Shown here in pieces: positions 15,035 through 15,305 of a DNA stretch of 64,000 nucleotides. How positions within the stretch are numbered: position 1 is the stretch's first letter; every line of letters begins with the position of its first letter. The position numbers and the translations under genes are program-made. Where the stretch lies: contig NZ_AP013042.1 of assembly GCF_001547755.1 (NCBI RefSeq), forward strand, positions 372,001 through 436,000, read 5' to 3'. This DNA is from an endosymbiont of Bathymodiolus septemdierum str. Myojin knoll (GTDB taxonomy: Bacteria > Pseudomonadota > Gammaproteobacteria > PS1 > Pseudothioglobaceae). The notes beneath the pieces were generated by a model, which was not told the DNA's origin, searched no databases, and saw only the letters and a list, made by a program, of their open reading frames with translations.

Positions 15035-15062
15035 TTGACAGCGACATTATTTAAGTTATAAT
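15035..15062 (+). promoter_or_regulatory. Consensus sigma-70 promoter of the second glnK-amtB leader
   Basis: TTGACA, a 16-bp spacer, then TATAAT: both hexamers match the consensus. The -35 begins 3 bp after the ligase stop codon. Transcription should start near 15069, five bases before the first leader hairpin. Confidence 0.85.
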
Positions 15063-15073
15063 TATCAGCAGTT

Positions 15074-15163
15074 ATTTCTCCAAAGGTGGAGAAATCAACA
15101 CAAAACATCGGCGTTTATTTAAGCTTTTTTCTTTGAGAAAGGTTTAAGTAAGCGTTTTTTTTT
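15074..15163 (+). promoter_or_regulatory. ANTAR-type antitermination element 1
   Basis: Hairpin P1 pairs ATTTCTCC (15074-15081) with GGAGAAAT (15088-15095) around hexaloop AAAGGT. After a 7-nt linker, P2 pairs AAAC (15103-15106) with GTTT (15113-15116) around hexaloop ATCGGC. Both loops have A at position 1 and G at position 4, the recognition rule for ANTAR proteins. The 3' strand of P2 lies in the 5' arm of a strong terminator: a 17-bp stem (15112-15128 with 15138-15154) and nine T (15155-15163). P2 and the terminator are therefore mutually exclusive. The ANTAR protein encoded at 17002-17586 is the natural ligand. Confidence 0.8.
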
Positions 15164-15166
15164 CGT

Positions 15167-15253
15167 CAGTTTCAAAGAGGGAACTGGGAAAAGGTATAGA
15201 AGCCAGTAATCAAATTTGCATATTTTTATGCAAGTTGGGTTACTGGTTTTTTT
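15167..15253 (+). promoter_or_regulatory. ANTAR-type antitermination element 2 (tandem)
   Basis: A second copy of the same layout, unrelated in sequence. P1 pairs CAGTTTC (15167-15173) with GGAACTG (15180-15186, one G-T) around hexaloop AAAGAG. After a 6-nt linker, P2 pairs GGT with GCC (15193-15195, 15202-15204) around hexaloop ATAGAA. Again A1 and G4 are present in both loops. P2 overlaps the 5' arm of terminator 2, where CCAGTAA (15203-15209) pairs with TTACTGG (15240-15246), enclosing a second hairpin (15216-15222 with 15227-15233) and followed by seven T. The P2 stem is only 3 bp, so this copy is less certain than the first. Confidence 0.6.
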
Positions 15254-15305
15254 GTTTATGGGGGATTTGCAATTTTGCAGAGAACTATTTTTTAGGAGAA
15301 GTTAT

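Follow-up and report, generated by a model that had tools for sequence, protein, structure and literature searches.

Results

A leader with two hairpin-terminator units precedes the second glnK-amtB pair

The stretch analysed here (the window; 64,000 nucleotides from the 1.47 Mb genome of a Bathymodiolus septemdierum endosymbiont) carries a leader between the end of a DNA ligase-like gene at 15032 and the start of glnK2 at 15306 (Table 1). A first-pass annotation had described this leader as a promoter with two consensus hexamers, followed by two consecutive units of a P1 hairpin, a P2 hairpin and a terminator, and all of these elements were seen in the sequence at the positions given there. 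All four loops (AAAGGT, ATCGGC, AAAGAG and ATAGAA) are indeed hexaloops with A at position 1 and G at position 4 (A1/G4), and the described overlap of P2 with the terminator is present in both units. Transcription would start at about 15069, a few bases ahead of the first hairpin.

The fold energies of the two units lie well below those of shuffled sequences (z -7.9 and -9.2), and the second terminator folded alone reaches -28.9 kcal/mol. The P2 helices are short, with only 3-4 pairs, and in the predicted fold of the full leader both terminators beat the P2 hairpins, as expected for the default state. The ANTAR gene that had been placed closely downstream is the only one in the genome. A strong predicted terminator (16913-16932) separates it from amtB2, and the ANTAR gene probably has its own promoter. 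No ANTAR leader was found at the first glnK-amtB pair of the window (9336-11013), whose transporter is of the ordinary AmtB subtype. As the leader stands only at the second pair, the two ammonium transporters are likely under different control.

Table 1. Features of the glnK2-amtB2 locus in the window and of the related nirB leader in the same genome
Feature	Position	Strand	Observation
Sigma-70 promoter, TTGACA-16-TATAAT	15035..15062	+	Consensus match 12/12
Unit 1 P1 hairpin, ATTTCTCC[AAAGGT]GGAGAAAT	15074..15095	+	Both-side changes in 6/7 counted pairs in relatives
Unit 1 P2 antiterminator hairpin, AAAC[ATCGGC]GTTT	15103..15116	+	98.6% of cells paired, 37 distinct sequences; G4 invariant
Unit 1 predicted intrinsic terminator, T9 at 15155-15163	15110..15163	+	P2 3' arm within its 5' strand
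Unit 2 P1 hairpin, TCAGTTTC[AAAGAG]GGAACTGG	15166..15187	+	Covariation; 5-nt loop in about half of relatives
Unit 2 P2 antiterminator hairpin, GGT[ATAGAA]GCC, 3 pairs	15193..15204	+	97.7% of cells paired
Unit 2 predicted intrinsic terminator, T7 at 15247-15253	15199..15253	+	P2 3' arm within its 5' strand
glnK2, PII signalling protein, first gene past the leader	15306..15653	+	Pfam PF00543
amtB2, ammonium transporter, marine subtype	15662..16882	+	TIGR03644, 619 bits
ANTAR protein, pseudo-receiver domain, NasT-like	17002..17586	+	PF03861; sole ANTAR gene of the genome
nirB leader, own genome	G000:C1:1017305-1017344 (L101:3640-3960)	minus	Tandem, same layout

Layout, loops and helices are conserved in the SUP05/Thioglobus family

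Among 60 loci with a relative of the ANTAR protein, 37 had complete glnK leaders, which together with the window gave a set of 38 from organisms that include Bathymodiolus symbionts, Thiodubiliella, Ruthia, Vesicomyosocius, Thioglobus and Pseudothioglobus. The tandem layout was found in all 38 of these glnK leaders of the SUP05/Thioglobus family, which comprises sulfur-oxidising marine bacteria and their symbionts. TATAAT is exact in 36 of them, and its spacing to the first P1 loop is near-constant at 15-19 nt.

Comparison of the loops, one of the checks that the first-pass annotation had proposed, revealed that G4 is kept and that A1 is almost as constant. In unit 1, G4 is present in 38/38 P1 loops and in 38/38 P2 loops, and the P2 loop of unit 2 has A1 in 35/38 and G4 in 36/38 leaders. 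P2 of unit 2 is off-pattern in Ca. Thioglobus perditus (L015) and in Vesicomyosocius. The A1/G4 hexaloop rule, which holds for all four loops of the window, does not extend across relatives to P1 of unit 2: here about half of the leaders have a hexaloop and most others a pentaloop of the form A.G.., and in leader L026 this loop lacks the G. Where P1 has a pentaloop or lacks the G, unit 2 may act differently or be weaker. In the reduced genomes of Vesicomyosocius, unit 2 of the glnK leader is decayed (L023, L028), and the units of the nirB leader (L159, L160) are better kept. Position 1 of the P1 loop is G in several Pseudothioglobus leaders, and a G for A at this position of unit 1 with G4 kept was seen in L034, L036-L038, L042, L047, L048 and L051. 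Retention of G4 alongside this exchange agrees with the reported restriction of base contacts to G4 (PMC8934654).

Covariation between the arms of P1 and P2 was found in both units, in equal-length alignments in which padding N in linkers and pentaloops carried zero weight. For unit 1, 91.4% of cells were paired compared to 76.0% in shuffles, with 68 double changes compared to 27, both-side changes in 9/11 pairs and a sharp fall in pairing when the arms were slid by one column. The corresponding values for unit 2 were 95.0% compared to 83.4% and 38 double changes compared to 12, with 5 pairs showing double changes against 3.3 in shuffles, a difference that is not significant alone; because kinship of the sequences inflates the shuffle comparisons of both units, the slid control is the better guide, and it concurs. 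On this comparative evidence, P1 and P2 are real helices in both units. The stems vary freely across leaders and the loop G is fixed, which is the pattern expected under ANTAR recognition.

Strong terminators overlapping P2 were predicted at the T runs of both units, which also bears out the annotation. The 3' arm of P2 lies inside the terminator stem in 38/38 leaders for unit 1 and, for unit 2, in 33 of the 34 whose T tract is clear, and terminator 2 is predicted to be the stronger one (median -22.9 compared to -13.6 kcal/mol for unit 1).

Scans and covariance models single out the two units

In an architecture scan for a P1 hexaloop hairpin of at least 4 pairs, a P2 hexaloop hairpin of at least 3 pairs and a terminator 5' strand containing the P2 3' arm, the A1/G4 letters gave two matches in 64 kb on both strands, and these were the two leader units. 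When loop positions 1 and 4 were set to any of the other 15 letter pairs, the same scan gave no match in 64 kb on either strand, and dinucleotide shuffles gave 0.3 matches per strand. A covariance model from which the sequences of the window and the units of three close relatives were left out recovered both units with 27.0 and 24.5 bits, ranking them first in the window (E 0.0007 and 0.0025; next best E 0.47). Searches of Rfam at gathering and permissive thresholds returned no relevant family and no riboswitch above cut-off. Ahead of either terminator no start codon with a ribosome-binding site was found, and a leader peptide with ribosome-coupled attenuation was rejected on this ground.

The adjacent ANTAR protein appears to lack both usual receiver inputs

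The protein encoded at 17002-17586 combines a receiver with an ANTAR domain and retains 8/8 of the EutV residues reported to touch RNA (PMC8934654), namely R142, K143, K147, K149, E160, Y164, R168 and M172. The phosphorylatable Asp of EutV-type receivers is absent, the phosphosite being Asn 56. Asn is found in all 86 family matches that cover the site (duplicate loci included), and Asp in 30/35 distant relatives. The site of the conserved receiver Lys is Val, as it is in distant NasT-like relatives. A NasS-type partner (PF13379) had no match in the own genome and none above cut-off in the 30 family genomes searched. The Asn phosphosite, together with the lack of a NasS match, indicates that the input is neither of the usual ones; contact with another protein, not phosphorylation, probably relays the signal. 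Gene order glnK-amtB-ANTAR is conserved in relatives. This constant neighbourhood makes GlnK or AmtB a candidate input partner, though naming either as the signal source is a guess.

The same leader type recurs at other nitrogen genes

A covariance model built from glnK leaders alone was run on 72 genomes. Matches were obtained in 43/46 family genomes and in 0/26 others. In the own genome, a third site scored 29.8 bits, equal to the best one, and proved to be a tandem leader of nirB (TIGR02374; Table 1). P1 of the second nirB unit is irregular in the genus of the source organism. Further tandem leaders were found in relatives at nirB (in many genomes), urtA, narK and serB, and a single unit at serC; in three of the family results the strict hexaloop scan drops one unit, and the tandem call was made there by inspection. 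Recovery of an independent set of nitrogen genes on the correct strand provides out-of-sample support for the leader model.

Pseudothioglobus-type genomes carry ANTAR leaders at the serine biosynthesis genes serC (L137, L140) and serB (L156, L170), an unexpected link. Single or partial leaders precede porin-like genes (L134, L141, L135), unit 2 being incomplete in L134 and the gene behind the L135 leader apparently broken. Weak model matches in the relatives L142, L158, L166-L169 and L171 were chance-like and were discarded.

The glnK leader of G007 (L138, L181; G007:C19) is retained, but past amtB the DNA has undergone rearrangement, and the assembly gave no match to an ANTAR gene. In G017 and G038 an ANTAR gene is present and the leader model found no match. 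Read from sequence, the leaders make up a family-wide regulon of double attenuators, with an orphan ANTAR protein as its putative regulator.

Tandem leaders arose at least twice

As the first-pass annotation had stated, the two units of the window are unlike in sequence beyond their common pattern: identity between unit 1 and unit 2 inside one leader is 52%, at the level of shuffled letters (51.5%; shuffled maximum 58). An origin of unit 2 as a duplicate of unit 1 in the glnK leader is thus not visible. Like units of different operons resemble each other, with 72% identity between the first units and 63% between the second units of the glnK and nirB leaders. Together with the shuffled-level identity within a leader, this indicates that the pair of units was copied between operons as a block. 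The two urtA units (L149, L164) are 93% identical from P2 through the T tract, which marks a separate, younger tandem duplication, and the tandem form thus has at least two origins.

Outside the family, a single unit was found in 15 of 26 NasT-like loci of the same class (L183-L208), and most of the distant loci sampled earlier likewise have one. None of the 26 outside loci has two units within the approximately 1.5-10 kb covered around the ANTAR gene. The earlier remark that a tandem is unusual therefore stands outside the SUP05/Thioglobus family and fails inside it, where two units are the norm at glnK and nirB and are also present at urtA, narK and serB.

Discussion

A probable double ANTAR attenuator and what doubling would bring

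Anatomy, conservation, covariation, terminator overlap, the co-located sole ANTAR gene and the wider regulon all point to an ANTAR switch, which bears out the first-pass reading in its essentials, and we put the probability that 15069-15253 is a double ANTAR attenuator serving glnK2-amtB2 at roughly 0.9. By default, each unit would fold its terminator, so that most transcripts would stop near 15163 and those that escape near 15253. Active ANTAR protein (17002-17586) would bind the emerging P1 and P2 hairpins at their G4 loops and keep P2 closed. A closed P2 would withhold the 5' strand of the terminator and let the polymerase proceed to unit 2, where the decision would be repeated, and glnK2-amtB2 would be expressed only after both units had been passed. 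We infer that transcripts actually terminate here, that the protein binds, that the two decisions are independent and that the regulatory logic and the benefit of doubling are as set out.

The first-pass annotation had expected a steeper or two-step response from two units. In a model of two attenuators that act independently, with theta as the occupancy and r0 as the leak, the output is (r0+(1-r0)theta) squared. At r0 = 0.1, the second unit widens the range from 10 to 100 fold, raises the apparent Hill coefficient only from 1.0 to 1.13 and shifts the half-maximum about twofold. The steepening claim thus survives as a small effect (apparent Hill coefficient approximately 1.1-1.2 in this simple two-attenuator model), while the leak is squared. 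Because the two leaks multiply, the expected gain from doubling is above all a much tighter off state together with a wider range; the response would steepen only slightly.

Alternative explanations

The units might differ in affinity or activity and give a graded two-step output instead of one joint gate. The lack of common sequence, the different kinds of P1 loop and the stronger second terminator are in line with this possibility, yet both units must be passed, so that the output is the product at any affinities; we regard a graded output as possible but on the unlikely side.

Less plausible is that one unit alone, most likely unit 1, is a working ANTAR switch and that its partner is a remnant, or a partial terminator that acts constitutively and only lowers expression. 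The 5-nt P1 loop of unit 2 in about half of the relatives, the missing G in L026 and the incomplete unit 2 of some porin leaders such as L134 could be read in this way. However, the hairpins of unit 2 covary, its P2 holds A1/G4 in 35-36/38 leaders and its terminator overlap is nearly as constant as that of unit 1. In addition, tandems recur at nirB, serB and narK and, by separate duplication, at urtA, and a dead unit would be expected to decay, as it has in the glnK leaders of Vesicomyosocius. We therefore consider a single working unit improbable.

Control by another factor, for instance a metabolite-binding riboswitch or ribosome-coupled attenuation, would fit the retained leader of G007 without a detected ANTAR gene. 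Against it stand the lack of a leader peptide with a ribosome-binding site and of an Rfam riboswitch, the fixed loop G amid freely changing stems, and the tracking of the ANTAR gene by the leaders through the family, which makes this explanation very unlikely. Finally, since ANTAR motifs are small and AT-rich genomes are rich in hairpins before T runs, two ordinary terminators of the upstream ligase gene and unrelated hairpins might resemble ANTAR targets by chance, but the architecture-scan controls, the hold-out model, the conservation and covariation in relatives and a promoter standing ahead of both terminators leave this a negligible prospect.

Relation to known systems

The single-unit ANTAR mechanism is established for EutV (PMC3369931, PMC8934654). 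With the ANTAR target RNAs of EutV/eutP, NasR/nasF, AmiR/amiE and NasT/nasA, the leader shares P1 and P2 hexaloops with A1/G4, a short linker, a P2 that overlaps the terminator 5' strand, a nearby ANTAR gene and the link to nitrogen genes (PMC3369931, PMC8934654). It differs in carrying two full units in series, which is the usual arrangement at several of the family's operons, and in the shortening of one P1 loop to 5 nt in many relatives. ANTAR targets ahead of P-II and ammonium transporter genes have been reported before, as have several targets per transcript (PMC3369931, PMC3369936). Multiple attenuators are known from the eut genes of E. faecalis, with four sites, and from Desulfotomaculum acetoxidans, where at least 13 are spread over six transcriptional units (PMC3369931, PMC3369936). 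Both systems resemble the present one in having more than one ANTAR attenuator per transcript or unit. In E. faecalis each site precedes its own gene (eutP, eutG, eutS, eutA), whereas here the first gene is preceded by both units, one directly after the other; D. acetoxidans is compared by its counts of sites and units.

Tandem riboswitches with two terminators, pseudo-cooperative as for TPP, likewise combine two independent terminate-or-pass decisions on one input into an output that is their product, and the argument that the gain lies in a tight off state and not in sharp switching has been made for them too (PMC9481103). The proposed sensor here is a protein on hairpin loops, in contrast to a metabolite aptamer. 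The NasS-NasT system of Paracoccus denitrificans (PMC3795266) has a pseudo-receiver ANTAR protein of the same kind and targets nitrite reductase and nitrogen uptake; unlike there, no NasS-type gene was found in the own genome or, above cut-off, in the family genomes searched, the ANTAR protein is encoded beside glnK-amtB and the phosphosite is changed from Asp to Asn.

In the literature covered, which was incomplete, we came across neither ANTAR attenuators placed back to back in a single leader nor such a regulon in SUP05/Thioglobus. The type of switch is known; its serial doubling as the rule throughout a regulon looks new.

Implications

Taken as a whole, it is a doubtful proposal that the orphan ANTAR protein of the Thioglobaceae, with neither a phosphorylatable receiver nor NasS, reads ammonium or nitrogen status through direct contact with GlnK or AmtB and runs a nitrogen regulon (glnK-amtB, nirB, urt, narK, serB/serC) by double attenuators, a tight off switch that selection favoured on at least two occasions. 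The leaders described here extend ANTAR antitermination from a single to a double form, kept across a family and arisen at least twice, and provide natural material for asking what serial terminators buy. An ANTAR regulator without either of the known receiver-type inputs, phosphorylation or NasS, makes the question of its signal a concrete one. The analysis also outlines a nitrogen regulon for a largely uncultured set of bacteria, the SUP05/Thioglobus group with its symbionts of mussels and clams.
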